Below are positions 2,251 to 25,877 of a stretch of 39,554 bases of DNA, one piece after another. This stretch comes from Halioglobus sp. (lineage in GTDB: Bacteria > Pseudomonadota > Gammaproteobacteria > Pseudomonadales > Halieaceae): contig JAGRIK010000047.1 in the NCBI GenBank assembly GCA_020443325.1, positions 1 to 39,554 on the forward strand. The letters are read 5' to 3'. Below the pieces are notes generated by a model. That model did not search any database. It had not been told where the DNA came from and saw nothing but the letters and a program-made list of their open reading frames with translations. Within the stretch, counting starts at the first letter, position 1. Every line of letters starts with the position of its first letter. The position numbers were made by a program, and so were the translations under genes.

Positions 2251-3468
2251 ATGAGTGCAGCAGAGACGGCGCGGATGGCGGGGATGATTGCGGTGGGGGG
2301 AACCCGGTTATTGCGGGACGCGCTGGGCGATATTCTCGGCACCAGCCTGCCCTACAAGGCGGCGGATGTCGCTACGCCCGCCGTGTTGTCGGAACTTGTC
2401 AGTAGCGGGGCCACGCGGCCAGACGCCCTACCGGCGCAGATCACCCGGGTGCAGCGCCAGTCGATACCCTCCGTCAGCAGTAATTGTGAGAACCTCGTGC
2501 TGACGATTGAGCAGGAAGGCGAGCCGACCCTGCCGCACAGCCTGTTCGTAAAAATCCCGATGGAGTCACTGTTAACGCGCTGGTTTTTCACCATCATCAA
2601 CGCCTGGCAATTGGAATCCTATTTCTTTCGCCATGTGGCGCATACCCAGCCGCTGCGCACACCGGTCACATACGCTACCCGTTGCCAGGGAACGCGTTTT
2701 TACCTGGTGCAGGAAAACCTGCATGAGGACCCGGACGTGGAACTGTTTACCAACCCCGATATGATGGCCGGCGCGCCGCTGGAGTTGGCCTACCGCTGCC
2801 TCGATGCCTTCGCACGGCTGCACGCCTGCCACTACGGGTTGAGTGCGTCTGAGCGCGAGAAAATCCTGCCGCTGAAATACCACCTGTTCCTGTCTCCCGG
2901 CATGGGCCTGGCGGCGCGCATGTTGAACGGCCTGGCGCTATCGCCGTGTATGAAGAGGCAGCCCGGTGCGATCCCTCCCGTTGTAGAGGAGGCCTACAAG
3001 CGCTCCATGGACCACTGGGATGCGCTGCTGGCGTACTGGTTTTCCGGCCCGCTCTCGCTGCTGCACGGCGATAGTCACCTGGGTAATTTCTTCGTCAGTG
3101 GTGAGGAAATGGGTATGCTGGATTGGCAGGCCGCACACTGGGGTAAAGGGATTCGCGACGTGCAGTATTTCCTGATCGATTCACTGCCTGCCGCGACCCT
3201 CGCAGAGCACGAACAGGATCTGGTCGCCTATTACGTGCAGCGCCGCGCACACCATGGCGAGCCGATAGACCCACAGCAGACCTGGCAGGAGTATCGCAGT
3301 TTTACCTTCCATACCCTGATGACGATCGTGGTATCCATTGGTTTTGGTGCACTCAATGCCGATCAGGATGAATTGATGGCTGAAGTGCTGCGGCGCGCTG
3401 TGGCCGCGGCACAACGGGTTGATTACGCCGGCTGGCTGGAAGACTATCTGCAAACTGTACAGGCCTGA
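2251..3468 (+). CDS. Aminoglycoside phosphotransferase/ecdysteroid-kinase-like phosphotransferase
   Basis: A 405-residue protein of the APH/choline-kinase fold, which transfers phosphate from ATP to a hydroxyl of a small molecule. The catalytic loop is HGDSHLGN at residues 272-279, with the presumed base Asp274 and metal-binding Asn279. The metal-binding Asp follows in MLDWQ (Asp291). The ATG at 2251 is preceded by an AAGGGG-like ribosome site. Proteins of this type in environmental bacteria often lie beside dehydrogenases and CoA-linked genes and are annotated only as phosphotransferases. The substrate cannot be read from the sequence. The zinc alcohol dehydrogenase begins 30 bp downstream on the same strand, so the two are probably co-transcribed. 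Confidence 0.85.
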   Translation: MSAAETARMAGMIAVGGTRLLRDALGDILGTSLPYKAADVATPAVLSELVSSGATRPDALPAQITRVQRQSIPSVSSNCENLVLTIEQEGEPTLPHSLFVKIPMESLLTRWFFTIINAWQLESYFFRHVAHTQPLRTPVTYATRCQGTRFYLVQENLHEDPDVELFTNPDMMAGAPLELAYRCLDAFARLHACHYGLSASEREKILPLKYHLFLSPGMGLAARMLNGLALSPCMKRQPGAIPPVVEEAYKRSMDHWDALLAYWFSGPLSLLHGDSHLGNFFVSGEEMGMLDWQAAHWGKGIRDVQYFLIDSLPAATLAEHEQDLVAYYVQRRAHHGEPIDPQQTWQEYRSFTFHTLMTIVVSIGFGALNADQDELMAEVLRRAVAAAQRVDYAGWLEDYLQTVQA

Positions 3469-3498: not shown

Positions 3499-4437
3499 AT
3501 GAAAGCAGTACGTTGTTGCGACAAGCACATCCAGGTGGTCGATATTCCTGCACCCGAGGGGGAAGGCGTGATCGTCAATGTCCGGTCCGCCGGCATCTGT
3601 GGCTCCGACCTGCATATGGTAAATGCCGGCTATGATTTACCCTCCACGCTGGGACATGAGGTGGCAGGTACACTACGCGATGGCCGCGCGGTAGCACTGG
3701 AACCCATTGCACCCTGTGGCCATTGCGATATGTGTGTGCAGGGCGACTACAGCCTGTGCCGGTTGAGTGCCGGTATGGTTTATGGCATGGGCCGGGACGG
3801 CGGAATGGCGGAGCACATCATAGTGCCGCAGCGCTGCATCGTGCCGCTGCCGGACAATGTCAGCGCCTCCGATGCCTGCCTGGTCGAGCCACTGGCGGTG
3901 GCGGCACACGGCCTGCGTATGCTGGATATCAAACCCGGTAGCCGGGTTGCCATCATCGGTGCGGGCGCGGTGGGGCTGGCTGCCGCAGCAATCCTGACAC
4001 CACACGTTACCACCGTGGATATCGCCGCTCGCCACCCGGCGCAGCAGGAGGCTGCCCAGCGCATTGGCGCCGGACTCGATCCCACCGGCGAGTACGATTT
4101 CGTGGTGGAGTGCGCGGGCAACTCTGCGGCGCTGAAACAGGCCGCGCGTCTGTGCAAACCCGGCGCCACCATTCTGCTGCTCGCCACTTACTGGGAGGGT
4201 GTCACACTCCCGGCATTTGAAGTGTCCATGAAGGCACTGAGAATCTACGCCTCGTTCATGTACGACCGCCAGGGCCTGGTGCGCGATGTTGATATCGCCG
4301 CACAGTTACTCGCACAGCGTCCCGAACTGCCGGGCATCATGATTACCCATCGCCTGCCGTTGGAGGCCGCCCCGGAGGCATTTGCGATTGCGGCGAACCG
4401 CAAGGCGGGAGCGATCAAAGTTGTGCTGGAGCCGTAG
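3499..4437 (+). CDS. Zinc-dependent alcohol dehydrogenase (MDR family)
   Basis: A 312-residue medium-chain dehydrogenase/reductase that oxidises an alcohol, sugar or polyol with NAD(P). Catalytic zinc ligands are visible as Cys34 (AGICGSD), His53-Glu54 (GHE) and Glu130 (VEPLA). The structural zinc lobe has all four cysteines (73, 76, 79, 87). The Rossmann motif GAGAVG is at 154-159. It is shorter than the usual ~340-350 residues, with loops trimmed after the Rossmann motif, but every key residue is kept, so it looks intact. The start has an ACAGGAG ribosome site about 7 bases upstream. It is downstream partner to the phosphotransferase. No substrate-specific signature was recognised. Confidence 0.9.
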   Translation: MKAVRCCDKHIQVVDIPAPEGEGVIVNVRSAGICGSDLHMVNAGYDLPSTLGHEVAGTLRDGRAVALEPIAPCGHCDMCVQGDYSLCRLSAGMVYGMGRDGGMAEHIIVPQRCIVPLPDNVSASDACLVEPLAVAAHGLRMLDIKPGSRVAIIGAGAVGLAAAAILTPHVTTVDIAARHPAQQEAAQRIGAGLDPTGEYDFVVECAGNSAALKQAARLCKPGATILLLATYWEGVTLPAFEVSMKALRIYASFMYDRQGLVRDVDIAAQLLAQRPELPGIMITHRLPLEAAPEAFAIAANRKAGAIKVVLEP

Positions 4438-4968: not shown

Positions 4969-5071
4969 CCACTACCAGAGTGAGGCGATTGTTGACGCGC
5001 TTGAGCGATTGTGTCACATTTTTTGCTGTTAGCCGGATCAACGGGTGCTCCGAGCATATAGGGAAGTAGTG

Positions 5072-5725
5072 ATGCCGAGCCGAGTTCTCATTGTTGATGA
5101 CCACCCCATCGTTCGCGACGCGCTCGTGACGTCGCTAGTCTCCCTGGATGTGTTCGATATCGTCGAAACGGCGTCGTCTTTCCAGGAGCTGCTGGAAAAG
5201 CTGGAGCACGATGACGACTACCAGCTGCTGGTGCTGGACCTCAGCCTGACGGATGTCTCCGGTGCCGATGGCATGCTGCACATTCGCGAGCACTACCCGG
5301 CACTTCCGGTGGTCATTTTCTCCGGGAATGACTCGGTCGATATCATCTCCCAGTGCTTCGAGAATGGTGTGCACGGGTTCGTCTCCAAGAACTCGTCGAT
5401 GCAGGTGTTTGTCAGCGCCATTCGTATTGTCCTGGCGGGCAGCACGTATATTCCGCCCTCGGCGGCCAGTTTGATGGGCTTCAGCCCGACCCCCGGCGTC
5501 GAGTCCGAACTGCTGTCGACGCAGGAGAAGGTGCGTTTTACACCGAAGCAGCAGGAAGTCTTCGAGCAGTTGATACAGGGCGTGCCCAACAAGGTTATCG
5601 CCAGGCGCCTGGATATGGCGGAGGGGACGGTAAAAACCCATCTGCACGGGATTTACCAGCTGTTGCGCGTCAGTAATCGCGCGCAGGCAATACTGCGCTC
5701 CCAGCAACTCCAGATTATCGACTGA
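5072..5725 (+). CDS. NarL/LuxR-family response regulator
   Basis: A 217-residue two-component response regulator. The receiver domain has the acidic pair Asp9-Asp10, phospho-acceptor Asp56 (LLVLDLS), Ser in FSGND and Lys in VSKNSS. The C-terminal LuxR-type helix-turn-helix spans about 160-210 (FTPKQQEVFEQLIQG...VIARRLDMAEGTVKTHL). An in-frame GTG at 5045 would add nine residues, but the ATG at 5072 has an AGGGAAG ribosome site and places the receiver at the usual position. It converges on the histidine kinase gene with only 4 bp between stops, so they are probably partners. Targets are unknown; the divergent GMC fusion gene beyond the kinase is one candidate. Confidence 0.9.
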   Translation: MPSRVLIVDDHPIVRDALVTSLVSLDVFDIVETASSFQELLEKLEHDDDYQLLVLDLSLTDVSGADGMLHIREHYPALPVVIFSGNDSVDIISQCFENGVHGFVSKNSSMQVFVSAIRIVLAGSTYIPPSAASLMGFSPTPGVESELLSTQEKVRFTPKQQEVFEQLIQGVPNKVIARRLDMAEGTVKTHLHGIYQLLRVSNRAQAILRSQQLQIID

Positions 5726-5729
5726 TTCT

Positions 5730-7088
5730 CTATTTGTGCTCGCGTGCGATGGGTACATGGAAGGTGAACTGCGTGCCTTCGCCGAGGGTTGAGGTCATCT
5801 GCAGGCCGAGATCGAGTGCTGTGTCGATTTTTTCAACAATGGACAGCCCCAGCCCCCTGCCGGCGCCGCCGGTGCCGTTGTTTTCAAGGCGTACAAACTG
5901 CTCGAACACGGTCTTCAGGTGTTCCGGAGCAATGCCCCTGCCGGTATCTGCGACGATAAACTCCACACGGTCTTCCACCGCGGTCGCGCTGCACCTGACC
6001 TCGCCATGATCGGTGTACTGAACTGCATTGGCTAGCAGGTTACGCAACAGGCGCAGCAGGAGATTGGCATCGGTCCTGACCGCAACGTCTTCCACTGCAA
6101 GTTGCCAGGCGAGGCCCCGCTTGGCGCACAGTTGTGCAAACTCGGCGTCGATGCGCCGGGAAAACTCGCCCAGGTAAAAGACAGACAGGCTGGGTTCGAA
6201 GCTGCCGCCCTGAAATCGGCCAATGTCCATCAAGGCGTCGAAATGGTCTGACATCTGGTCGATGCTGTCACGCTGGTTCTGCAGGATCGCGGCGATGGAT
6301 TTTGGTGGATCCGACATCAACAGTGTGTCGGTGAGAATACTCAGTGCATACAGCGGCTGTTTTATGTCGTGGCTGGCAGCGGCCATAAAATACGTCTTCG
6401 CATCATTCGCAGCCTGCGCCTTGAGCAGTGCCTGCCGCGTATTCTGCTGTTCGGTTTCCAGCTTTTCCAGTAGCTGGTCTTTCTCGAAGCGCATGAGGAC
6501 GCTGTCGTGAAAAATATGCGAACCGCGACGCACCAGCAACACCATCAGTGTCATCGCGAGCAACATGCTGACGCCAATTGAAACGCCGATCTCTGGCTGT
6601 ATCAACCAGAATCCCGCGACCTCACCGATCAAAATGGAGATGGAAATAACGAAGCTGGGAAAGTCAGAGAACAGATTGGACATCACGCCAATCGACCAGA
6701 TCACCACGATCAGGGTCATAAACAGGGGCAGGATGAATGTATCTGCGGTGGGGGATTGTATGATCCAGATTCCCAGCCCCACCATTGCCTGGTTGACGAT
6801 ACTGCTGATGCGTAAAATCCGGTCTGTCCTGGTTAAACCGTGCACCGAAAGCGTATCCAGCCGCTTTCTGATGCGTCGAGAGAAATCGCCTCTCGCCAGA
6901 ACCAACACTATGATCGGCACTGCCCACAGTGCAATCCTGCTGTAGGTGACACCCTGGCTGACGATGAAGGGAATAAACAGGAGAATGGCCAGGAACGTCG
7001 AAAAAATGGACACCGGAGCGACAACGATGCGAGCGCGGATGGATTCCCGCAACACGACTGTTTCGGCATGTTGACCAGTTTGTAGCAT
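5730..7088 (-). CDS. Membrane sensor histidine kinase
   Basis: A 452-residue histidine kinase. The N-terminal ~190 residues form about six hydrophobic segments (near 25-44, 52-65, 95-110, 117-138, 143-163, 168-188) with short loops, so there is no large periplasmic sensor. A short coiled linker leads to the H-box ASHDIKQPLYAL with phospho-acceptor His240. The ATPase domain has the N-box (LLRNLLANAVQY), G1 (DTGRGIAPEHL) and G2 (GRGLGLSIV). There is no receiver domain. It is tail-to-tail with the NarL-type regulator, its likely partner. The six-helix sensor suggests detection of a membrane or lipid-soluble signal, by inference. The promoter region is shared with the GMC fusion gene. Confidence 0.9.
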   Translation of the reverse strand: MLQTGQHAETVVLRESIRARIVVAPVSIFSTFLAILLFIPFIVSQGVTYSRIALWAVPIIVLVLARGDFSRRIRKRLDTLSVHGLTRTDRILRISSIVNQAMVGLGIWIIQSPTADTFILPLFMTLIVVIWSIGVMSNLFSDFPSFVISISILIGEVAGFWLIQPEIGVSIGVSMLLAMTLMVLLVRRGSHIFHDSVLMRFEKDQLLEKLETEQQNTRQALLKAQAANDAKTYFMAAASHDIKQPLYALSILTDTLLMSDPPKSIAAILQNQRDSIDQMSDHFDALMDIGRFQGGSFEPSLSVFYLGEFSRRIDAEFAQLCAKRGLAWQLAVEDVAVRTDANLLLRLLRNLLANAVQYTDHGEVRCSATAVEDRVEFIVADTGRGIAPEHLKTVFEQFVRLENNGTGGAGRGLGLSIVEKIDTALDLGLQMTSTLGEGTQFTFHVPIAREHK

Positions 7089-7146
7089 AGGGATGTTCGC
7101 CGGTGTCTCCGCCTGGTTCTGCTTTCTCTGCTACATTCTCATAGAG

Positions 7147-7160
7147 TTGATTTAGGTCAA
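7147..7160. promoter_or_regulatory. Candidate FNR/ANR-type box
   Basis: TTGATTTAGGTCAA differs at one base from the FNR/ANR consensus TTGAT-N4-ATCAA. It lies in the 138-bp gap between the divergent kinase (start 7088) and GMC fusion (start 7227), about 67 bp before the latter. No fnr/anr gene is in the window, so this is a sequence match only. Confidence 0.35.
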
Positions 7161-7226
7161 TATCTGGCCGTGCAGTGACAATTGCGCTGACCCTGCTCAG
7201 GGAATGGTACAACGAAGAGGCTCAGC

Positions 7227-10200
7227 ATGACACGGATTTCATCCCCTATTGAATCACTGATCAAAGAGCACAGTGCGGGTAGCAAGTTGCTGGAGGTCGA
7301 TTACCTGGTCATCGGCTCGGGTTACGGCGGCGCCGTGGCGGCGATGCGGCTGGCGAGTGACGGTACCGAGGGGCCCGCGCGCAAGGTGGTAGTGCTCGAA
7401 CGCGGCAGGGAGTATTTGCCGGGTGATTTTCCCTACGACATCGAGGATCTACCCTCCCATGTTCGCCTGCTTCGCAGCGGGGCAGGCGGCGGGGTGAACG
7501 GCTATGCCGATGCGCTGTTCAATATCCATGTCGGCAGTACTGAGCGGGAATTTGGGCCGGAACCGTCTGCACAGGCAAGTGAAGGCACGAGCGCCGATGC
7601 GGCGACAGATGTTTTGGTTGGCAGTGGCCTGGGTGGTACCTCGTTGATCAATGCCAATGTCGCCGAGGAGCCGCAGGCACATGTCTTCCGGAAGTCGGCC
7701 TGGCCAACGTTTTTTCGCACTACCTCGACACCGCTAGCCAAAGAGTTTGCGGCCGTGCGCGAACACCTGGGGGTCGCGCGGCGTGCCTCAAGTGGTGAGA
7801 AGGTATTTCCCAAATACGCCGCTCTCGGGCAGCTCGGACAGGCGCTCGGGACAGAGGTGCGGCCAGCCTGGCTGGCCGTTACCACGGCGCCGGGCAGCAA
7901 TAACGTCGGTGTGAAACAAAACCCCTGTACGGATTGCGGCAACTGTGTAACAGGTTGCAATGTCGGGGCGAAAAATACACTGGACCGGAATCTTCTGCCG
8001 TTGGCCAGGTCACGCGGCGCCGAGTTCTATACGGGTGCGACGGTGCACTCGATAGAGCCGTTGCAGAACGGCGCTTTCCGCTGGCTTGTCAACGTCCATG
8101 CGACGGCTCAACCATCCGCGGATATCAAGCCGGATACTTACCGTATCCTGGCGCATAACGTGATACTCGCTGCCGGTGCGCTTGGCAGCACGGAGATACT
8201 GCTGCGGTCTGAATCGACGTCGGCGCCACTGTTCTCCAGTACCCTGGGCCAGCGATTTTCGACCAATGGAGACGGACTCGCGATGAGCTACGGGCAGGCA
8301 AAGCCCGTGAGCGCCATCGCAGCGGCAGAGCAAAAACAGCCGCTACAAATAATAGGGCCTACCATTACGGGAATTCTGCAGACGCAGCGGCTTACCATCG
8401 AGGAGGCGGCCATCCCGGCCTCGCTGGCACGGGTATTCTCGGAGATGGTGACCACCGGAGCGATGCTGCGGCGCCTCTCCGATCGCACGCTGCCGGAGGC
8501 GCTCACAGGAACCGGGCAGGATCCGCTGGCCGCGGCCATGGCGGTGGCCGATCACTGCCAGGCATTGCTGGTGATGGGTGATGATGGTGCTGAGGGGGAA
8601 CTGGGGTTGTCCAGGCACAGCGGCAGGATCAGTGTCTCGTTCCCTGCAGGCAAGGAGAATGCTGCGCTGCTGAAGGCCGATGCGCTGTTAAAGGCGCAGG
8701 ATCGCGGTGAGGGCCTGGACGGCGGCCAGTATGTGCCCAACCCGCTGTGGCAACTGCTGCCCCCGGAGGCCAGCGGCATCCTCGGGGAGTTTCCCGATGG
8801 GCGCGTCCTGACGGTACACCCGCTGGGCGGCTGTGCGATGGGCGATGATGTTGATGGCGGTGTCGTCAACGATGCCGGCCAGGTCTTCGACCGCAGCGGC
8901 GGGGTGCACGAGGGCCTGTATGTGTTTGACGGGTCCATCATTCCGGCGGCGCTGGAGGTCAACCCATTCCTCACCATCGCGGCATTGGCGTGGCGCAACG
9001 CGGATCTTATCCTGGAAAATCTGGGCACTGCAGAGTCGCCCCGAAAGCAGGTGCGGTCCGGATACGGCGATGTCGGTGATGTCCCGGTAAGGCAGCGGCA
9101 CCGCCCCGGTGCCACGGAGTTTGTGATACGGGAGCAACTGACCGGCAGGCTGAACCGCTTACCGAATGGCTTCAGCACACTGCCGGGGCTTGAGCCGGAG
9201 CAGCAGCGGCGCATCCAGGACGTTGCCGGGCTCGTGGTTGAGGTGCACGCTGCCAACGGTGATGCGATTGCCTGGCTTGATAACCCCGCGAAGACCCCGC
9301 TGGAAGCCACGATGGACTTGTACGTCAATCCCTTCAGCGCCGAAGAAGTGTCTACCTTTCGTCCGGTGGGCGTCACCGGGGAACACCTCAGGCGGTGTTA
9401 TCCGGAGGGGCCTTTTTTGTCGCTGCATGGCCGCTTCACGATATTTGCAGAGGATCGCCACAACGCGATCTGCGACCTGTGGGGTGGCGCGAAAGCGGTT
9501 TTGACCTACGCCAAACGGCGCGGCCTCGGCGACCTGGTGGAACTGGCCAGATCGGGATCAGCGCGCACCGGGTCGCAGGGTTTATGGGACCAGTTCCGGG
9601 TATTCTTCAATATCGGTGTGCTGCAGAACCGCCGCAGGCGACTGCGCTACGATTTCAGGTCCGCAGACAACGCCATCTCTATCTGCGGCGAGAAAGTACT
9701 GGGCTACAGTTGCGAGTTGCCCAGGTTATGGGACGGCTTGCTTAATCTAGAACTCAGGATAAAAGCGGGTGACCTGCTGCCCGCGAAAGCAACACTCAAG
9801 GTCAATACCGACGCCCTGCTGGAGCCGGGCCTGGTTGCGGTGAATGAATCGCCGCACCTGCCGCAAAGCCTGTTGTTTGCAGGCGGGCTGATGGCGTTCG
9901 CGGTGCGTTCGCTGGTGGCGACCAATTTCTGGGAGTTCGGCGGAATGGAATACGCTGATCAAGCGGTGAAGTCGTCACCGGACGGGACAGGCAAAGACTG
10001 GAGGATGTTTCCCGATTTGGAGACGGATGACGGGCCCATACCGGCGATGACGCGCGACCTGTCAGTACCCATCAGGCCGGGGTGTAAGCCTGAGCAGAAT
10101 ATCCGGCTGCTGCTCACCAACTATCAACGAAAAGATGCGCCACCGGTATTGTTACTGCACGGCCTAGCCCAGGGTTCAGAGATATTCTGGACGCAGGGCA

Positions 10201-12683
10201 TTACCAACATGGCCCGATATTTCCACGAGCAACACTTCGATGTGTGGCTGCTGGATTATCGGCTCAGCACTCTCGTGTTGCCCGATCTGGAGGATCAGGC
10301 CTGGAGCATCGATGACATTGCGCGTTTCGATATTCCGCTGGCCATCGATGCGGTGTACAACGCAACCGGGAAGAAAGTCGCTATCTTCGCGCACTGCGTG
10401 GGCGCCTGTTCGCTGGCAATGGCTGTGCTGCGGGATCACGGCCTGAGCGATAAAATCCAGGCGGCGGTGACGAATGCGATTCACCCCTGGGTGCTGCCGT
10501 CTCCCGGCAACCGGTTCCGGGCCAAGCTGGGCAACCTCTCCCGCGACTGGATTACCGATGACCTGTTAGACCCCGTTCCCCGGAAAAGCGATAGCGCCGT
10601 ACATCGGTTGATCGACCGCGTTGCCTTCAGCCTGGCCCGGATGAGAGAGGTGCAGGACGATCACACCCGGTATGGCGGGAGCAATCTGGTCAAGGGAATC
10701 TGTGATCGCATGACATTCCTGTACGGTCGTATGTGGAACCATGAAAACCTGCACCACTCAACGCATGATGCGTTTGAACACCTGTTGGGGCCCTCACCGC
10801 TGCGGGTTTACCAACATCTCTATCAGTTTGCGAAGTTGCAGCGCATTACCAGTGAAGAGGGTGAGAATATCTACCTGGAGCGCGGCAATATCGAGCGCAA
10901 CTGGAATATCGATATCCTGTTTGTGCATGGCGGCGACAGCCTTGTCTTCAATCCGCATTCCGCGAGGCGCTCAGCGAAACGGCTGGGAGAAATCCTGCGA
11001 CAACGGTCGGCGGGTGATACCAACGTTGTCGGGTATAAAATTTTCGATGGCTACGGCCATATGGATGTGGTGTTCGGAAAAGATGCGCACAAGGTCTGTT
11101 TTCCTCGCTATGTCGAGTTTCTCCGCCAGCCCGGCACGATCGATGATCCGGTGCGCGCGAATGACATGCCGGAACCCTGTTGGGAAAAACCACTGATCGG
11201 GCCGATCTTGCGCGCCGCCTGGGTCGATAATGGCAGCATCCATATGCGCTTCAGCGCAGAACTGCGCGCGGATACCCTTGACCCGCCCGTGGGCTTGCTG
11301 GCCAGTGGTGACAATGTCTGCGGCCCGGGCAAGGGTGGCATGGTCTTGCCGTTTCCCCATAGTGGGCCGCGGCCACAGTTTCAGTATCTCGATGTGCAGG
11401 CCAGGGACCCGCGCCAGGACATAGTGCTGCAGGTTTGTTCCGACTTTCCCGGCCTCGATGTGAACAACGGCGTGTCGCTCAGGTATCGCGAGGAAGCCTG
11501 GTTGCAAGGGCTGCGGGAAAAACCTGAAGGTGAGCCGCGACGTTTGTGCTTTATCGTGGGCTCCTGTCGCTTCCCGGGTTCTGTTATCGATAACGCGCTT
11601 TCAGACAGGGTGTATGGCGCTATCAGTGAGCACCTTGCGGGGCCCGGTGGTGCGCAGCTGTTGTTTCTGGTGGGCGACCAGATCTATGCCGATGCCACAG
11701 ACCAGTTGTTCGAGGTCAATTCGCTGGACTCTCGTTACACGGATCGTTACCGGCGCGCGTTCAGTGCCAAGGATTCGCCCCATTTCAGCGCACTGGTGCA
11801 GCAGATTCCCACGCATTTTGCGCTGGATGACCACGAGTTTGATGACGACTCGTCCGGCTTGCGGGATGACGCGCCACCGGATGAAAGAAAGAGCTGGCAG
11901 TATGCCCGGGAGATGGCGGCCTGTTATATGAGTTCAGTGCGTAACCAGGTGCCGGTGGGCGCGGGCAGTGCGGCACTCGCCAGTGGTCCCTTTTACTATC
12001 CGCTGGCCTGCCCGCAGGAGAGCGATTTCCCGGTCTTTGTGGCCGATACACGTTCGCAGCGGCAGTTTCGCCGTCACAACAGGGCGGGGTGCTATACGCT
12101 GTTCGACGATACCCAACTCAGCGAATTGACACACTGGCTGCTGCAGGCGGGTATCCATGCCGCGGATTCGCCAAAATTTATTGTCTCCGGGAGCATAATT
12201 GCGCCTTACCCTGCCGCATACGCCCGGGATGGGGCCACCTGGCGCCAGTTGGATGGCTGGGCCGGATATCCCGCAACACTGGAGGCTGTGCTCGCGTTCA
12301 TCGCAGATAACGCCATCAGGAATGTTATCTTTGTCGGCGGCGATGCCCACCTGTCGGCGGTTTCCCACCTGCAAGTACGCACGGGCGAGGCCGCCCCGGT
12401 CGATGTCTGGCAAATTGTCAGCTCAGGTTTATACGCGCCGATGCCTTTCGCCAACGCACATGTGGAGGACTACCTGTGGGATGTTTCCCATCCACTGCCT
12501 GTGCACGCGAGCGCGCACTTATCGATCACCTGCTCCAACAGGTTGCTGTCTGACGCCTATTCCCAGTTCGTCAAGGTGGAAGCCGGTGTCGATACGGTCA
12601 ATGTGACCTGCAGGGATCACCACAACAACACGATCGCTGGGCAAACGATAAGGCTGCGGGAGGTATTTCCCTCTCCGGGATAG
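7227..12683 (+). CDS. Trifunctional fusion: GMC (cholesterol-oxidase-like) oxidoreductase, alpha/beta hydrolase, PhoD-like phosphatase
   Basis: A single uninterrupted 1818-residue frame. Residues ~25-620 are a GMC flavoenzyme: FAD motif GSGYGG (30-35), a cysteine cluster CTDCGNCVTGC near 233-243 as in cholesterol-oxidase-like proteins, HPLGGC at ~531 and NPF at ~579. Residues ~620-930 are a linker domain of unknown role. Residues ~970-1300 are an alpha/beta hydrolase with VLLLHG, a nucleophile elbow AHCVGA in which Cys1057 replaces Ser, Asp1237 (GGDSLVF) and His1278 (GYGHMD). Residues ~1435-1815 are a PhoD-like metallophosphatase with VGSCRF, GDQIYAD (~1483), DDHEFDDD (~1534) and GGDAHLS (~1704). 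No signal peptide is visible. Plausible substrates are sterol- or lipid-like esters and phosphodiesters, by inference. ATG follows a weak AAGAGG site. Confidence 0.85.
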   Translation: MTRISSPIESLIKEHSAGSKLLEVDYLVIGSGYGGAVAAMRLASDGTEGPARKVVVLERGREYLPGDFPYDIEDLPSHVRLLRSGAGGGVNGYADALFNIHVGSTEREFGPEPSAQASEGTSADAATDVLVGSGLGGTSLINANVAEEPQAHVFRKSAWPTFFRTTSTPLAKEFAAVREHLGVARRASSGEKVFPKYAALGQLGQALGTEVRPAWLAVTTAPGSNNVGVKQNPCTDCGNCVTGCNVGAKNTLDRNLLPLARSRGAEFYTGATVHSIEPLQNGAFRWLVNVHATAQPSADIKPDTYRILAHNVILAAGALGSTEILLRSESTSAPLFSSTLGQRFSTNGDGLAMSYGQAKPVSAIAAAEQKQPLQIIGPTITGILQTQRLTIEEAAIPASLARVFSEMVTTGAMLRRLSDRTLPEALTGTGQDPLAAAMAVADHCQALLVMGDDGAEGELGLSRHSGRISVSFPAGKENAALLKADALLKAQDRGEGLDGGQYVPNPLWQLLPPEASGILGEFPDGRVLTVHPLGGCAMGDDVDGGVVNDAGQVFDRSGGVHEGLYVFDGSIIPAALEVNPFLTIAALAWRNADLILENLGTAESPRKQVRSGYGDVGDVPVRQRHRPGATEFVIREQLTGRLNRLPNGFSTLPGLEPEQQRRIQDVAGLVVEVHAANGDAIAWLDNPAKTPLEATMDLYVNPFSAEEVSTFRPVGVTGEHLRRCYPEGPFLSLHGRFTIFAEDRHNAICDLWGGAKAVLTYAKRRGLGDLVELARSGSARTGSQGLWDQFRVFFNIGVLQNRRRRLRYDFRSADNAISICGEKVLGYSCELPRLWDGLLNLELRIKAGDLLPAKATLKVNTDALLEPGLVAVNESPHLPQSLLFAGGLMAFAVRSLVATNFWEFGGMEYADQAVKSSPDGTGKDWRMFPDLETDDGPIPAMTRDLSVPIRPGCKPEQNIRLLLTNYQRKDAPPVLLLHGLAQGSEIFWTQGITNMARYFHEQHFDVWLLDYRLSTLVLPDLEDQAWSIDDIARFDIPLAIDAVYNATGKKVAIFAHCVGACSLAMAVLRDHGLSDKIQAAVTNAIHPWVLPSPGNRFRAKLGNLSRDWITDDLLDPVPRKSDSAVHRLIDRVAFSLARMREVQDDHTRYGGSNLVKGICDRMTFLYGRMWNHENLHHSTHDAFEHLLGPSPLRVYQHLYQFAKLQRITSEEGENIYLERGNIERNWNIDILFVHGGDSLVFNPHSARRSAKRLGEILRQRSAGDTNVVGYKIFDGYGHMDVVFGKDAHKVCFPRYVEFLRQPGTIDDPVRANDMPEPCWEKPLIGPILRAAWVDNGSIHMRFSAELRADTLDPPVGLLASGDNVCGPGKGGMVLPFPHSGPRPQFQYLDVQARDPRQDIVLQVCSDFPGLDVNNGVSLRYREEAWLQGLREKPEGEPRRLCFIVGSCRFPGSVIDNALSDRVYGAISEHLAGPGGAQLLFLVGDQIYADATDQLFEVNSLDSRYTDRYRRAFSAKDSPHFSALVQQIPTHFALDDHEFDDDSSGLRDDAPPDERKSWQYAREMAACYMSSVRNQVPVGAGSAALASGPFYYPLACPQESDFPVFVADTRSQRQFRRHNRAGCYTLFDDTQLSELTHWLLQAGIHAADSPKFIVSGSIIAPYPAAYARDGATWRQLDGWAGYPATLEAVLAFIADNAIRNVIFVGGDAHLSAVSHLQVRTGEAAPVDVWQIVSSGLYAPMPFANAHVEDYLWDVSHPLPVHASAHLSITCSNRLLSDAYSQFVKVEAGVDTVNVTCRDHHNNTIAGQTIRLREVFPSPG

Positions 12684-13246: not shown

Positions 13247-14068
13247 TTAATCCGTAAGAGCCAGTTCTCGCGTGGCGGGGTGATCCAGCAGTTCCTGGTA
13301 GTTGCTCACTGAATCCCTCAGGTCTGTCGCGCCCACTTTGCTAAGCGCGGGTTCGATATTTGGCGCGATGGTATCCAGCTTCAGGAAGCGGCAGACATCT
13401 TTAACGACTGCCGACGTATCGGCTGCGAGGGCCTCATAGTTCGTCTCCAGCACGTCCTGTTTCGATAGCAGCGCGCGGATTTCGGCGGCCTGTGCGTCAA
13501 GTTCCGCAGTCCTGCGCAGGAAAGCGTCGATATCGAAGTGGATTTTTATCGGTACTTCACTCCTGCCGCCCGCACCCGAATGATTGGGGCCACCCTGCAG
13601 CAGTATCTGCTCGGATACAAAACGCCTGACGCTGTTGGTGCGGGTCAGGTGAATGAAGTGGATGTTGTCCAGGCTTTGCAACCAATGCGTAACCTCGCGC
13701 CATCTCGGGTTGAGGAACGCGCTGTACAACGCCTTGAACCCCGCCGTTGTTCCGTCGGTGCCCAGTGCGCGATCGATGAAGCCCACCGGGTCTGCGTCGC
13801 GCTCCCCGAGCAGGCGCTGCGCCCGGCTTTTTCGCTCTTCCTGGCTGATGTTTGCCAGGTCGATGCCGTCCTCATAGCCGCGTACCTGGTCATCGCCCAG
13901 CAACTCGCCGTGGCAGCGCACGCCGTCCAGGGTGTTGAGTGTCCTTACCAGAAGCGTGCTGCCGGTGCGGGGTGCCCCGACAATCACAAATTTTGTCTTC
14001 AAACTGATCTCGCTGACCTGTATTACCTTGCGGGAATGGCGCCAGCTTATATTAGGCCTGTCGAACAA
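13247..14068 (-). CDS. Sulfotransferase family protein
   Basis: A ~273-residue PAPS-dependent sulfotransferase. The 5'-phosphosulfate loop is [15 protein letters not shown] at about residues 31-45. The 3'-phosphate site is suggested by [17 protein letters not shown] at about 135-150, with Arg and Ser in the expected spacing. The acceptor (lipid, carbohydrate or protein) cannot be told. The start is uncertain. The longest frame begins with TTG at 14068, while a second TTG at 14002 would begin directly at KTKFVIVG; no ATG precedes the P-loop. The gene is divergent from the SDR at 14152, and phhB follows 14 bp downstream. Confidence 0.8.
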
Positions 14069-14939: not shown

Positions 14940-15590
14940 TCAGGCGGTGCGCAGTTTCAGGAAGGGGTTCATCCAGCGGAACTTCCAGTCCGTGAACTTG
15001 AGCGGCGCATCCAGCACGGCGAGACAGATGCAGTCCTCAGACTGCAGCGCCGTGGGTGCATGTACATCCCCGGGCCTGCGGACCAGGAAGTCGCCCTTGT
15101 GGTAGCTGCCGTTCGCGTCGGAGAAGCCGCCCTCCAGGATCAGGGTCATTTCTGTACCGCGATGCGTGTGTTGTGGGATACGGCCACCCGCGCGGATGTG
15201 ATAGAGCGCGAACTCGTGCTGCGGGTCCCCGGTTTTAAGGTAGCTGATACGCAGGGCGGAGCCGATATTGCTCCAGGTCAGGTCACTGAAGTCGCCGCGC
15301 ATCAGGCGCTGTAATAGAGCCGGTGTCTTACTGGTGCTACCGGGATTGGCATACTCCAGCGGTTTTTCGTCATCCAGCTTTGCCAGGACCGCATTCAGCT
15401 GGTCGTCGCCAACCGCCACGGGCTCCAGCGCTTCGAACAGGCTCGCGCCGAGGTCGCAGAGTTGCCCGGCCGTGCGTTGGCAGCGCTGGCACTGGTTCAC
15501 ATGGATGGAGACACACGCCGCCTGCGCCAGCGGAAGAGAGCCGGCAGAGTATTCGGTGAGGAGTTCGAGGTCGGGATGAAAATTGGTCAT
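14940..15590 (-). CDS. chrR: ChrR-type zinc anti-sigma factor with C-terminal cupin
   Basis: A 216-residue inhibitor of the adjacent ECF sigma factor. In Rhodobacter sphaeroides ChrR, zinc is held by His6, His31, Cys35 and Cys38. Counting from the ATG at 15590, this protein has His5, His30, Cys34 and Cys37, the same spacing, which supports that start over a TTG at 15608. The C-terminal cupin keeps HTHRGTE and a later PGDVH, matching the second metal site. Known homologues release the sigma factor in response to singlet oxygen. The ATG lies 7 bp after the sigma stop codon, giving the standard rpoE-chrR order and likely translational linkage. Confidence 0.92.
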   Translation of the reverse strand: MTNFHPDLELLTEYSAGSLPLAQAACVSIHVNQCQRCQRTAGQLCDLGASLFEALEPVAVGDDQLNAVLAKLDDEKPLEYANPGSTSKTPALLQRLMRGDFSDLTWSNIGSALRISYLKTGDPQHEFALYHIRAGGRIPQHTHRGTEMTLILEGGFSDANGSYHKGDFLVRRPGDVHAPTALQSEDCICLAVLDAPLKFTDWKFRWMNPFLKLRTA

Positions 15591-15597
15591 GGCATTG

Positions 15598-16206
15598 TCA
15601 TCTTTCAAGTTGAATCTGCAGTTTTTGAAGGGCCAGGCGTACGCGGGATTTCACAGTCCCCAACGGAAGATCCAGTTCCCCGGATACCTCAGAGTGGGTC
15701 TTGCCTTCCATGTACACTTTCACAAGAATCTGTGCCTGGTCGTTGGGTAGCTCCTTAATCAGGCCCCGTATGCGGTCCCTGCTGCGCTTCTGGTGCAGCA
15801 CCACGAACGCCTCGTCGCTCTCCTGCGAGTCGGACACGTCCTCGGCCGATAACGGGGTATCAAATTTTTGCAGCCGGCGGTAGAGGTCGGTCCGGCAGTT
15901 GCGCGCAATGGTATAAATCCAGGTGCTGGCTGCGGCCTTCTCGGCATCAAAGCCGGCGGCTTTCTGCCAGACTTTCAGCATCACTTCCTGCACCAGTTCA
16001 TCGGCGTGATTGGCTGACAAGGTGGAGCCGGAGAGGGCAAATGCCTTCATCAATGGCGCAAAGTGCCGAAACAGGCGCGTGAAGGCCGCCCGATCCTGTT
16101 TTTGCGCGATCAGCGTCAGGCATTCGCTCCATTCGTCAATGCGTTTGCCGTCTGCATCGATGAGGGGGTTGCCCTCGTCATCGGTGGTATTTGCCACAAT
16201 CAACAT
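15598..16206 (-). CDS. rpoE: ECF sigma factor, RpoE of the RpoE-ChrR (singlet oxygen) type
   Basis: A 202-residue extracytoplasmic-function sigma factor. Region 2 spans FTRLFRHFAPLMKAFAL through ADELVQEVMLKVWQK and STWIYTIARNCRTDLYRR. Region 4 holds LPNDQAQILVKVYMEG and LPLGTVKSRVRLALQKL. I set the start at the ATG at 16206 rather than the in-frame GTG at 16260, because the sigma-type promoter at 16233-16259 lies inside the longer version and would leave the upstream codons untranscribed. The first gene of a two-gene operon with chrR, it probably activates its own promoter and the divergent operon. Confidence 0.9.
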   Translation of the reverse strand: MLIVANTTDDEGNPLIDADGKRIDEWSECLTLIAQKQDRAAFTRLFRHFAPLMKAFALSGSTLSANHADELVQEVMLKVWQKAAGFDAEKAAASTWIYTIARNCRTDLYRRLQKFDTPLSAEDVSDSQESDEAFVVLHQKRSRDRIRGLIKELPNDQAQILVKVYMEGKTHSEVSGELDLPLGTVKSRVRLALQKLQIQLER

Positions 16207-16232
16207 GCTCTTGTCCGCGTATGTTTTGAAAG

Positions 16233-16259
16233 TATACGCATGATCACGGGATTGGATCA
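16233..16259 (-). promoter_or_regulatory. RpoE/ChrR-type promoter for rpoE-chrR
   Basis: Read on the minus strand: -35 TGATCC (16259-16254), 15-bp spacer, -10 CGTATA (16238-16233). This fits the known TGATCC...CGTA pattern of ChrR-controlled ECF sigma factors. The predicted transcript would start near 16227, about 20 bases before the ATG at 16206. It implies autoregulation of rpoE-chrR. Confidence 0.75.
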
Positions 16260-16325
16260 CCCGAATTGATCAATTATTATTCCAGCAGTAGGCAATCGTT
16301 GTTTTGCCTGGATTTCGTCAAAAAC

Positions 16326-16353
16326 TGATCCGGAAACCTGTTAGCCCCGTATT
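16326..16353 (+). promoter_or_regulatory. RpoE/ChrR-type promoter for the divergent stress operon
   Basis: Plus strand: -35 TGATCC (16326-16331), 16-bp spacer, -10 CGTATT (16348-16353). It is the same motif as the promoter facing the other way 67 bp to the left. The predicted transcript start, near 16360, lies about 50 bases before the ATG at 16410 and excludes the longer TTG-initiated frame that begins at 16353. Confidence 0.75.
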
Positions 16354-16409
16354 TGACCATAACAAGGGAGCTCGGTTCGTCGCGCCGCGCAGGAAAGAGG
16401 TTTACCAGA

Positions 16410-17672
16410 ATGAAAATCGCTGTGATTGGATCGGGCATATCGGGCTTGTCATGCGCCCACTACCTGAGTGCAGACCACGAGGTGTGGGTCTATGAGGCCA
16501 GCAACAAGATCGGTGGCCACACCGCGACCGTGGACGTGCGTCTGGGGACTCGGCGCTATGCCATCGATACCGGTTTTATCGTCTTCAATGACTGGACATA
16601 CCCGAATTTCATCGCCTTGCTGGAGGAACTGGGTGTGTCCAGCAAGCCGACAGCGATGGGTTTCAGCGTGCGCGACCCGCAGTCCGGGCTGGAATATTCC
16701 GGCACCAACCTCAATACGCTGTTTGCCCAGCGCCGCAACCTGTTCTCTGTAGCCTTTATCGGCATGATTCGCGATATTTTGCGGTTCAATCGCGAGTCGG
16801 TTGCCGATCTTGACGCGGGCAGAATTGACGATGCCGAGACCCTGGGGGTGTATCTCGCGCGCAACGGCTACGGCGACAAATTTATCCGGCACTACCTGGC
16901 GGCAATGGGTTCCGCGATCTGGTCCGCTGATGGCGCGACAATCCTGGCGTTTCCGGTCAGTTTTTTTGTCCGCTTCTTCAGGAACCACGGGTTGCTGTCG
17001 GTCAGTGATCGGCCCCAGTGGCGGGTTATCGAAGGGGGGTCGCGGGAGTATCTTAAGCCTTTGTGTGCGCGCTTCTCAGACCGCATTTCGACTGGCAACC
17101 CGGTCGTGAAAGTGGTCCGGCACGCCGGAAGAGGGGTCACCCTGCGAATGGCGGACGGGCGGCAATTGATGTTCGACCAGGTTGTCTTTGCGACCCATTC
17201 CGACCAGGCGCTGGCGTTGCTGGAGGATCCCACGCAGGCTGAGCGCGAGATCCTGGGCGCCATTCCCTACCAGAAGAATGATGTGGTGTTGCATACGGAT
17301 ATCCGCATGCTGCCGCGTAATACCAAAACCTGGTCCAGTTGGAACTACACGCTGGGGCAGACTGATGGGCCCGCGGTTGTCACCTACAACATGAATATCC
17401 TGCAGGGTATAGAAGCGCCGGAGACGTTTTGCGTGACGCTCAACAACACGGCGGCGATAAATCCGAATATGATCCTCGGCCAGTTCCAGTACGACCACCC
17501 CGTGTTCTCACTGGATGGCATGCAGGCGCAACAGCGCTGGGAGGAGATCAATGGTGTGGCCCGAACCTGGTATTGCGGCGCCTACTGGCACAACGGTTTT
17601 CATGAAGATGGTGTGGTAAGTGCGCTGCGTGTCGCTAACGCGCTGTCAGGTGCGGAGCGAGCAGTAGCGTGA
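16410..17672 (+). CDS. FAD-dependent NAD(P)/amine-oxidase-like oxidoreductase of the RpoE regulon (possible UfaD-like)
   Basis: A 420-residue flavoprotein. The FAD motif is at the N-terminus (AVIGSGISGLSCAHYLS, with Glu in VYEASNKIGGHTATVD). The C-terminus has GAYWHNGFHEDGVVSALRVA, a signature of proteins always found near CFA synthases and DUF1365. The ATG at 16410 follows GGAAAGAGG and the predicted transcription start. It is the first gene of the operon, and its stop overlaps the next start by 4 bp. In R. sphaeroides, RpoE-dependent genes of this type take part in furan fatty acid formation, as a desaturase acting on a methylated fatty acid. Homology to that enzyme is inferred from memory and context, not tested. 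Confidence 0.85.
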   Translation: MKIAVIGSGISGLSCAHYLSADHEVWVYEASNKIGGHTATVDVRLGTRRYAIDTGFIVFNDWTYPNFIALLEELGVSSKPTAMGFSVRDPQSGLEYSGTNLNTLFAQRRNLFSVAFIGMIRDILRFNRESVADLDAGRIDDAETLGVYLARNGYGDKFIRHYLAAMGSAIWSADGATILAFPVSFFVRFFRNHGLLSVSDRPQWRVIEGGSREYLKPLCARFSDRISTGNPVVKVVRHAGRGVTLRMADGRQLMFDQVVFATHSDQALALLEDPTQAEREILGAIPYQKNDVVLHTDIRMLPRNTKTWSSWNYTLGQTDGPAVVTYNMNILQGIEAPETFCVTLNNTAAINPNMILGQFQYDHPVFSLDGMQAQQRWEEINGVARTWYCGAYWHNGFHEDGVVSALRVANALSGAERAVA

Positions 17673-18448
17673 GATCCCGAATCTACCAGGGTGTGCTGCG
17701 GCATCGCCGTGTGTCGCCACGCCACCACGAGTTCCGCTACCGGGTTGCGATGGTGTATCTGTGCCTCGATGAGGCGGCGGAGCTTCTTGATAAGCAGCGG
17801 TTCTGGTCGGCCAGCGGACCGGCGCTTGCAGAGTTCCGGCGCAGCGACTTTCTGGGTGACCCAGATATCCCGCTACAGGACGAGGTGCGCCGACGCATCC
17901 GCGAGGAAACAGGGGTGCAGCACACCGGCCCGATCTACCTGCTCGCCAACCTGCGTTATTTCGGCTATGTGATGAATCCGATTGCCTGTTACTACTGCTT
18001 TAACGACGACGAGACGCGGTTGGAATATGTGGTAGCAGAAGTGAACAACACCCCCTGGGATGAGCGCCACAGTTACGTGCTGCCCGGTCCGCAGAGTGGC
18101 GCCTGGCTGAAGACAGCGTTCGACAAACAATTCCATGTGTCACCGTTCAACCCGATGGGAATGCGTTACCACTGGCGCAGCAACACCCCCTCCCGTCGAT
18201 TGGTGTTGCACATGGAGAATACGGTAGAGGACGAAAAGGTGTTCGATGCCACCCTCTCGCTGTCGGCACAGCCAATGACAGCCACCAACATGCATAAATT
18301 ACTGATCCGCTACCCCGTTATGACTGCAAAGGTTGCACTGGCGATCTACTGGCAGGCACTGCGGTTGTATCTCAAGGGCGTGCCGGTTTACTCGCACCCC
18401 AAAAACAATGTGCCCGAAGGGCCGGTCATAGGAGCCAACAATGAGTGA
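17669..18448 (+). CDS. DUF1365 family protein (possible UfaO-like)
   Basis: A 259-residue protein of the DUF1365 family, known almost only from operons with the preceding flavoprotein and a CFA-like methyltransferase. Family features are RHHEFRYRVAMVYLCLDE at 18-35, YFGYVMNPIACYYCF near 105, VVAEVNNTPWDERHSYVL near 130 and FHVSPFNPMGMRYHW near 155. The GTG start overlaps the previous stop (GTGA), which indicates translational coupling; its own end overlaps the next start by 8 bp. In the R. sphaeroides furan fatty acid pathway a gene of this kind is thought to introduce the ring oxygen; equivalence here is inferred. No signal peptide was recognised. Confidence 0.85.
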   Translation: MRSRIYQGVLRHRRVSPRHHEFRYRVAMVYLCLDEAAELLDKQRFWSASGPALAEFRRSDFLGDPDIPLQDEVRRRIREETGVQHTGPIYLLANLRYFGYVMNPIACYYCFNDDETRLEYVVAEVNNTPWDERHSYVLPGPQSGAWLKTAFDKQFHVSPFNPMGMRYHWRSNTPSRRLVLHMENTVEDEKVFDATLSLSAQPMTATNMHKLLIRYPVMTAKVALAIYWQALRLYLKGVPVYSHPKNNVPEGPVIGANNE

Positions 18449-19697
18449 AGTCAGCATAGGTACGCTGCGAGTACCACAGACACGCCGTGCCAGGATAGGC
18501 GAAAAATTTGCCCGCGAGGCGGTGTTTACAATGCTGGGTAAGTTGCAGGTGGGCTCCCTGATATTGCATGAGGGACCACGCCGACACCATTTTGGCAATG
18601 AGTCCGCGCAGGGGGAGCCGCAGGCGGAGGTGCACATCCACAATCCGGACACCTACGGGCAAATGCTGACCGGCGGCTCCATTGGTGCCGGCGAGGCGTT
18701 CATCAAGGGCTACTGGTCCTCGCCCGCCCCGGTGGAAGTCACGCGCCTGTTCAGCGCCAATCTCGCCGTACTGGAGGGCTTCGAGGAGAAGCAGTCTATG
18801 CTGGTCAAACTCGCGCTGAAAATCGCGCACCGACTGAACCGGAATACGCATAAGGGGTCTCGGGAGAACATTGCGGCGCACTATGATCTGGGCAACGATT
18901 TCTTCCGCCTGTTCCTCGACCCGACCATGATGTATTCGTCGGCCGTGTTCACGGGGCCGGATATGAGCCTGGAAGCCGCCTCTGAGGCCAAGCTGGACGA
19001 ATTGTGCCGGCAGCTTGAGTTGCAACCGGAGGATCACCTGTTGGAGATCGGTACCGGGTGGGGCGGCATGGCGATACATGCAGCAAAACACTTTGGCTGC
19101 CGGGTGACTACCACCACCATTTCAAAAGAACAGTATGAGCACGCGTGCGCGCGGGTGAAGTCTGAAGGCCTTGAGGACAGGATTACCCTGCTGTGCGAGG
19201 ACTACCGCAACCTCACCGGGCAGTATGACAAGCTGGTGTCGATCGAAATGATCGAGGCTGTGGGGCACGAGTTCTACCAGAGCTATTTCCAGATTTGTGC
19301 CGGGCTGCTGAAGCCGGACGGCAAGATGGTGATACAGGCAATCACCGTGGCAGACCAGCGCTACCAGTATGCACGGGATTCGGTGGACTTCATCAAGCGC
19401 TATATTTTCCCGGGAGGTTGCCTGCCTTCCATCGCCGTGATGGCCGACCATATCGCCCGGGACACCGATATGCAGATGGTCCATTTGCGCGACATTACCG
19501 CTGACTACGCCACCACACTTGCGCATTGGCGGGAGCGCTTCCTGGCCAATGTGGACGCTGTGCGCCGTATGGGCTTTAGCGAGGAGTTCGTGCGCATGTG
19601 GGAGTTTTACCTCTGTTACTGCGAGGGTGGCTTCAGGGAGCGCATCATCGGCACGGTGCAACTGGCTTTGGCCAAGCCGGGTTATCGCGCAGCATGA
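18441..19697 (+). CDS. Cyclopropane-fatty-acid-synthase-like SAM methyltransferase (CfaA/UfaM-like)
   Basis: A 418-residue SAM-dependent enzyme that adds a methylene or methyl group to the double bond of membrane acyl chains. The SAM site is LLEIGTGWGGMAIHAA at about 200-215. Family motifs ENIAAHYDLGNDFFRLFLD, MMYSSAVF, VSIEMIEAVGHE and KRYIFPGGCLPS follow in order. The N-terminal ~130 residues form the non-catalytic lipid-binding region, so the length is normal. The sequence alone does not say whether the product is a cyclopropane or a methylated olefin feeding furan fatty acids. It overlaps the DUF1365 gene by 8 bp, and photolyase starts 26 bp downstream. Expression is probably driven by the RpoE promoter at 16326. 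Confidence 0.92.
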   Translation: MSEVSIGTLRVPQTRRARIGEKFAREAVFTMLGKLQVGSLILHEGPRRHHFGNESAQGEPQAEVHIHNPDTYGQMLTGGSIGAGEAFIKGYWSSPAPVEVTRLFSANLAVLEGFEEKQSMLVKLALKIAHRLNRNTHKGSRENIAAHYDLGNDFFRLFLDPTMMYSSAVFTGPDMSLEAASEAKLDELCRQLELQPEDHLLEIGTGWGGMAIHAAKHFGCRVTTTTISKEQYEHACARVKSEGLEDRITLLCEDYRNLTGQYDKLVSIEMIEAVGHEFYQSYFQICAGLLKPDGKMVIQAITVADQRYQYARDSVDFIKRYIFPGGCLPSIAVMADHIARDTDMQMVHLRDITADYATTLAHWRERFLANVDAVRRMGFSEEFVRMWEFYLCYCEGGFRERIIGTVQLALAKPGYRAA

Positions 19698-19723
19698 TCA
19701 CCTACCTGCGCGGTTGAAAAGGG

Positions 19724-25872: not shown

Positions 25873-25877
25873 CTGCG

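Follow-up and report, generated by a model that had tools for sequence, protein, structure and literature searches.

A long reading frame in a contig of Halioglobus sp. raises the question of whether a single bacterial polypeptide does in fact combine three distinct enzyme domains and, if so, what process these might jointly serve. The frame lies in the window, i.e. the whole stretch of 39,554 bases that was analyzed, which is also the full length of the source contig in an assembly totaling 4.7 Mb. It begins with an ATG and comprises 1818 codons with zero internal stops. The features discussed below, with the evidence on which each was assigned, are the following:

5045-5725, plus strand: NarL/LuxR-type response regulator (Pfam, homologues at fused loci)
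5730-7088, minus strand: membrane histidine kinase, divergent neighbor with 138 bp between the genes (Pfam, homologues at fused loci)
7227-12683, plus strand: fusion protein of 1818 aa with the order GMC - LINK - Cys-ABH - PhoD (reading frame, Pfam, relatives)
7227-9026, plus strand: GMC oxidoreductase domain, residues 1-600, cholesterol-oxidase-like (Pfam, PDB comparison)
7926-7958, plus strand: CX2CX2CX3C motif (Cys234, 237, 240, 244), putative Fe-S site in the GMC domain (alignment)
9027-10103, plus strand: LINK region (a name of our own), residues ~601-959 (conserved domain)
10104-11141, plus strand: alpha/beta hydrolase (ABH) domain, residues ~960-1305, acid-lipase-like (Pfam, PDB comparison)
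10395-10397, plus strand: Cys1057 of HCxG, at the nucleophile position (Cys in all 39 family rows)
10935-10940, plus strand: Asp1237-Ser1238, the second residue being the acid column (alignment)
11058-11066, plus strand: His1278-x-Asp1280, both invariant (alignment)
11154-11531, plus strand: stretch between hydrolase and PhoD with no domain match (Pfam)
11532-12680, plus strand: PhoD-type metallophosphoesterase domain, residues ~1436-1818 (Pfam, alignment to 2yeq)

Architecture of the fusion protein

Sequence profile searches of the window protein against Pfam recovered matches over the cut-off to GMC_oxred_N (residues 26-328, E 2.6e-12), GMC_oxred_C (529-588, E 5.8e-13), Abhydrolase_1 (972-1280, E 1.9e-7) and PhoD (PF09423; 1473-1739, E 2.8e-18, 66.6 bits against a cut-off of 27). 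None of the NCBIfam models reached its cut-off with this protein, the best being that of cholesterol oxidase (NF058674, 151.1 of 850 bits). The key motifs that a first-pass annotation had listed for all three enzyme domains are indeed present, namely GSGYGG (30-35), HPLGGC (531-536) and NPF (579-581) in the GMC part, HC (1056-1057) and His1278 in the hydrolase part, and GDQIYAD (1483-1489), DDHE (1534-1537) and GGDAH (1704-1708) in the PhoD part. The same annotation had placed the three domains in a single uninterrupted frame, and this is corroborated, beyond the frame and the Pfam matches themselves, by full-length relatives. The nearest of these (L004, 74% identity; L005, 54%) are encoded in one frame in two other Halioglobus genomes, and further single-frame forms occur in more distant genomes; hence, the fusion is not an accident of assembly. 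A frameshift artefact joining separate genes is thereby ruled out. The protein is probably cytoplasmic, since no signal for export was evident at its N-terminus upon inspection by eye. Structure predictions from three-sequence alignments yielded mean pLDDT values that are too low to use, both for the LINK+ABH region (41.6) and for the C-terminal part (38.2).

The C-terminal domain combines its PF09423 match with the conserved metal-site motifs of that family, and in alignment with the PhoD alkaline phosphatase 2yeq, its nearest solved relative, the DDHE, GD.H and neighboring positions coincide. Its score against the NCBIfam PhoD equivalog model is 20.9 of 1000 bits. PhoD is typically an exported, stand-alone enzyme; unlike 2yeq, the domain of the window protein forms the C-terminal part of a giant polypeptide in which no export signal is evident by eye.

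The N-terminal region belongs to the GMC superfamily, as indicated by both of its profiles, a GxGxxG motif and the C-terminal His/Asn pair, of which His531 and Asn579 are invariant in all 14 rows of the GMC alignment. Its best solved relatives are cholesterol oxidase and related GMC oxidoreductases (1b4v, 3cnj), with which it shares the FAD fold and the C-terminal His/Asn positions. Unlike these, it is fused to further enzymes and contains the CX2CX2CX3C motif, which is likewise invariant in the 14 rows and aligns with no cysteine of 3cnj. As judged from the loci collected, this motif is not special to the fusion: it is present in 57 of 64 distinct GMC-like frames, the seven without it being stand-alone frames of 511-535 aa. 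The FAD glucose dehydrogenase of Burkholderia cepacia, also a GMC enzyme with a cysteine cluster, has a 3Fe-4S cluster on Cys212, 218 and 222 that relays electrons from FAD (PMC6719666). The spacing of those ligands differs from that of CX2CX2CX3C. The four cysteines of the window protein could possibly form an Fe-S site, and the GMC part might use such a relay in a dehydrogenase-like rather than oxygen-using role.

The stretch of about 300 residues between the GMC and ABH parts, which had been set down as an unassigned linker domain, proved to hold a conserved domain (LINK) with a profile of 241 positions and a GxK..D.GfD.W.DTTTLY signature in most of 12 aligned members. It is encoded by a gene of its own in G867 and also in G1294, where it is flanked by genes for a calcineurin-type phosphoesterase and an ABH. 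In G241 (L130) LINK shares one frame with a patatin-like phospholipase (6094-7659), which is followed by an acetoacetate-decarboxylase-like gene and then a Cys-ABH gene. A row of phosphoesterase, LINK, ABH and decarboxylase-like genes is observed at L133. In the window protein and in L112 the domain has diverged and acquired insertions. Searches with LINK recovered no match in NCBIfam (two proteins with LINK outside the GMC-ABH chain) and a single chance-level match in the PDB, to a nanobody (E 0.066). The LINK+ABH regions of 18 members, when compared to Pfam, recovered hydrolase and peptidase families along with one weak match to DUF4917 in one member (E 0.041, its place in the region not being given).

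The hydrolase domain and its catalytic residues

The best PDB matches of a profile of the LINK+ABH region were gastric lipase (1k8q, E 8.4e-20) and lysosomal acid lipase/cholesteryl ester hydrolase (E 1e-15). These enzymes (1k8q, 1hlg, 6v7n) are the nearest solved hydrolases and share with the family the nucleophile elbow and the HxD at the histidine. In the alignment to gastric lipase the family cysteine lies opposite the lipase serine, the family asparagine opposite the aspartate of the GGND segment, and GHxD opposite NHLD. We take the aligned Ser, Asp and His of gastric lipase to be its catalytic triad. Because the family Cys and Asn align with the lipase Ser and Asp, the triad, as read from this alignment, is changed at two positions in the family, the serine being replaced by Cys and the aspartate by Asn (by Ser in the window protein). 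The sequence similarity extends along the hydrolase fold, and the Ser-Asp-His triad of the acid lipases is absent; PF04083 is matched weakly in 2 of 18 members.

These residues were counted across 39 rows, comprising only members over 1000 aa; the count includes the broken-frame L041, L111 and L128 and the contig-cut L039, and excludes L119 (its hydrolase truncated where the contig ends), L120 (871 aa) and the split genes at L129-L133. All 39 rows have Cys in the nucleophile column and His in the histidine column, and the aspartate of the following HxD is equally invariant. The acid column is Asn in 36/39 and Ser in the remaining three, which are the window protein (Ser1238) and its two nearest relatives. 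All five stand-alone ABH genes also possess HCxG. The placement of Cys1057 at the nucleophile elbow is hence upheld by its invariance and by its alignment with the serine of the gastric and lysosomal lipases. The proposal of Asp1237 as the triad acid was not borne out in that form: the residue is present, but it sits one position before the conserved acid column. It may substitute as the acid in the window protein, though this is a guess.

The hydrolase part could instead be an acyltransferase of the PHA-synthase kind with a cysteine nucleophile, rather than an esterase. In its favor are the lipase-box cysteine typical of PHA synthases, which recurs in every family row and stand-alone ABH gene, and the weak similarity of the profile to PHA synthases (E 8e-4 and 3e-3). 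However, the match to the gastric and lysosomal lipases is far stronger (E 8e-20), and the acid column of the family is Asn, whereas the triad acid of PHA synthase is Asp. Further, the NCBIfam results for the window protein include no PHA synthase family model, and the only such model among those listed for L037 reached 14.9 of 365.3 bits. We therefore regard this assignment as rather unlikely. In Rhizobium leguminosarum a PhaE gene lies ~6 kb from the family gene; no link to PHA metabolism is built on it here.

Distribution, split forms and phosphoesterase neighbors

The three domains had been described as usually occurring alone; the searches of related genomes recovered proteins with all three domains in the same order from other Pseudomonadota. 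Among 140 genomes of the window's family, three-domain proteins are present in G038, G039 and G040 at 29-31% overall identity, G037 contains a piece truncated at a contig end and G011 the two-domain form. In 293 genomes of the order further three-domain genes were found in G662, G747, G769, G554, G707, G625 and G670, with the fusion gene in broken frames in G571 and apparently split over two contigs in G563. In 369 genomes of the class they were found in G1281, G1266 and G1166, the last being broken within PhoD. Ensifer plasmids carry three-domain genes at 27-28% identity, the frame of E. canadensis being broken, and across other Pseudomonadota the full domain order was seen again at 27-31% identity. 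The two-domain GMC-ABH form was also found in other Pseudomonadota, and plasmids of Bacteroidota encode it as well. The broken frames of L041, L111 and L128 might reflect either sequencing error or decay. The family is uncommon, as estimated from profile searches: matches of the full profile at 1e-20 came from 17/398 genomes of the phylum, many in the GMC or PhoD part alone, and those of the LINK-ABH profile at 1e-30 from 2/385 genomes in the class of G194.

Each of the enzyme domains is known already, and GMC-ABH proteins, with or without PhoD, are present in databases under generic names. For example, WP_149201188.1 and WP_338815766.1, annotated as 'alpha/beta fold hydrolase' or 'GMC oxidoreductase', have the GMC-LINK-ABH core in common with the window protein. 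A search of an open-access library, with subscription journals outside its scope, found no paper on the fusion, of its split forms or of a Cys/Asn triad in a lipase fold.

Unlike the window protein, the two-domain proteins lack the PhoD domain, and often a separate phosphoesterase gene adjoins them. G867 (L131) encodes PhoD, LINK, GMC and ABH in four separate genes that lie side by side on one strand, and in G194 (L112) a GMC-LINK-ABH gene is adjoined by a PhoD gene on the same strand. A metallophosphoesterase is encoded within two genes at 12 of 18 unfused GMC-ABH loci (11 by motif scan, L118 by Pfam). At ten of the 18 it is the immediate neighbor (L040, L045, L046, L048, L112, L113, L118, L122, L125, L126), in every case co-directional with the GMC-ABH gene, with -8 to 88 nt between the two, excluding the stop codons. 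It occupies the second place at L116 and at L117, where it is on the opposite strand and was recognized by its motif and 34% identity to that of L045. The identification is less secure at some loci: the neighbors of L045 and L046 possess the motifs with no Pfam phosphoesterase match, that of L045 being annotated as a phosphoesterase in its record; the neighbor of L122 is below the PhoD cut-off and is reached by the PhoD profile at E 1.5e-9. As background, PF00149 is matched six times in the genome of the window and PhoD three times, once by the fusion gene itself.

The motif scan, which is not fully sensitive in that it misses the L118 enzyme found by Pfam, detected such a gene in 9/36 immediate neighbors, 2/34 second-place genes and 0/71 genes in the third to sixth places of the unfused loci. 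None of the 176 neighbor ORFs at 18 fused loci, not all of which were run through Pfam, contained the phosphoesterase motif. By motif only, 11/18 unfused and 0/18 fused loci have such a gene (Fisher p 1e-4), relatedness not being corrected for and the fused loci forming only about two groups on the tree described below, rather than 18 independent cases. The corresponding contrast of 9/36 immediate against 0/71 third-to-sixth ORFs gave p 3e-5, again uncorrected for relatedness. The comparison of 18 with 18 loci excludes L039, L041, L119/L120, L128 and L129-L133, and keeps the broken-frame L111, where a fragment of the fusion gene counts as one neighbor ORF. At six of the 18 unfused loci (L044, L047, L114, L115, L121, which has little sequence on one side, and L123) a phosphoesterase was not seen within two genes, so that this enzyme is either not obligatory or sited elsewhere.

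The neighboring phosphoesterases fall into several groups with no mutual phmmer match at E 1e-3: L040/L048/L125/L126; L116/L118; L045 with L117; L046; L113; and L122. The PhoD domains of L112, L131 and the fused proteins form a separate group at the same threshold. On a quick tree of the LINK+ABH region fused PhoD accounts for two changes and the adjacent calcineurin-type enzymes for five; this tree has 10 weak forks out of 36, its deepest split joins long branches, and it does not distinguish gains from losses. These sequence groups and changes on the tree suggest repeated recruitment of phosphoesterases of differing kinds. The neighbor arrangements of the unfused form are the best evidence suggesting that the activities belong together. 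The earlier proposal that they serve one process accordingly gains support from the different phosphoesterases beside the unfused form and from the four-gene split arrangement.

These observations also bear on the alternative that the fusion merely secures co-expression, with the parts acting on different molecules while serving one broad pathway, such as the scavenging of lipid or phosphate, at fixed stoichiometry and with no channeling. Physical linkage is not essential, because split arrangements exist in other genomes, and the pairing of LINK with a patatin in one genome would also accord with a looser association. On the other hand, the occurrence of varied phosphoesterases by the unfused form, and of none by the PhoD-fused form in the motif scan, points to a specific shared need, and we consider this alternative unlikely.

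Signaling neighbors and proposed function

A histidine kinase gene similar to that of the window adjoins 16/18 fused loci, and a NarL/LuxR-type regulator like that at 5045-5725 is present at 12/18, the window being counted in both cases and the loci being partly close kin. Kinases at four other fused loci have a HisKA-HATPase-receiver architecture by Pfam, whereas that of the window is without a receiver. A hydropathy scan detected three to five hydrophobic segments in 13/14 kinases and one in the remaining kinase. The genes for the response regulator, the fusion and the kinase directly adjoin or overlap one another in L108-L110. The place of the kinase is taken by a cyclase-AAA protein in the fused Ensifer loci L042 and L043 and in the unfused L112 of G194 (by Pfam in L042 and L112, by similarity in L043), and at L048 an AAA/TPR regulator adjoins the GMC-ABH gene. 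A kinase and a regulator are also found near the unfused L115, L125 and L126. These neighbors tie the enzyme to a signal, as part of either regulated catabolism or a sensing circuit.

In light of the above, we propose, with a rough probability of 0.6, that the window protein is a multi-enzyme protein, probably cytoplasmic, in which a recurring bacterial module is found in fused form. This module would comprise a phosphoesterase, LINK, a cysteine lipase-like hydrolase or acyltransferase and a GMC alcohol dehydrogenase, often located beside a signaling gene and probably directed at a lipid. The activity of all parts, the order of steps, channeling, the substrate class, the Fe-S cluster and the thioester are inferred here from sequence comparisons. 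The PhoD part would remove a head group attached as a phosphate or phosphodiester; Cys1057 of the Cys-ABH part would attack an acyl ester via a thioester intermediate, so that water or a different acceptor receives the acyl group; and the GMC part would oxidize the freed hydroxyl, with electrons passing from FAD to the probable Fe-S cluster and on to a carrier. As substrate, an amphipathic lipid of a sterol-, glycerolipid- or polyketide-like type is the most likely. Two sterol enzymes, cholesterol oxidase and lysosomal acid lipase/cholesteryl ester hydrolase, are among the nearest solved relatives of the GMC and ABH parts; this is in keeping with a sterol substrate but does not demonstrate it. 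Besides regulators and phosphoesterases, no gene that would name the substrate was seen in common across the loci compared. The family Asn is absent from the window protein and from the two proteins nearest to it, and this counts against the proposed explanation.

It is unlikely that the fusion makes or destroys a signal lipid that is the ligand of the adjacent membrane histidine kinase, forming a sensing circuit with the two-component system: the kinase adjacency, the abutting genes of L108-L110, the hydrophobic segments of the kinases and the cyclase-AAA and AAA/TPR proteins would all be consistent with this, but the arrangement also fits simple substrate-induced regulation of a catabolic enzyme, and the type of signaling gene differs by lineage.

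A broader reading, to which we would give somewhat less than even odds, is that it constitutes an undescribed lipid system of four units wired to its own sensor. The units would be a phosphoesterase of interchangeable family, LINK, a Cys-His-Asn alpha/beta hydrolase and an Fe-S GMC dehydrogenase, which evolution would have put together in several ways: in separate genes, in a two-domain core that borrows its phosphoesterase, and in one chain bearing all three enzymes. The four-gene to one-gene arrangements in living genomes provide a testable case of the assembly of a multi-enzyme protein, which contains a lipase-fold enzyme with two changes in the triad (Ser to Cys, Asp to Asn) and the conserved domain LINK. 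The substrate, if found, could reveal an unrecognized bacterial lipid pathway, perhaps with a one-protein biocatalyst.

Several other genes of the window and related loci may be noted. Upstream of the regulator, an EcKL/APH-type kinase-like protein (2251-3468) is followed by a zinc alcohol dehydrogenase (3499-4437). A sulfotransferase-like gene (13247-14068, minus strand) lies just after the fusion gene, with a homologue in L004 only among the loci compared. In the region 14940-22638 a gene pair for an ECF sigma factor and a ChrR anti-sigma factor precedes genes for an FAD oxidase, DUF1365, a cyclopropane-fatty-acid-synthase-like methyltransferase, a photolyase and SRPBCC-SDR, a set resembling a known photo-oxidative-stress regulon; it is syntenic in L004, and was not seen in the sequence surrounding the fusion gene of L005. 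A HlyD-type membrane-fusion protein and an RND efflux pump (24736-28964) adjoin an old-yellow-enzyme-like gene (28961-30253, minus strand). Finally, a RoxA-like cytochrome c gene and a di-haem peroxidase gene lie beside two-domain GMC-ABH genes (L116, 9709-11637; L121, 5966-7018), and these neighbors could possibly function as electron acceptors or in the removal of peroxide.
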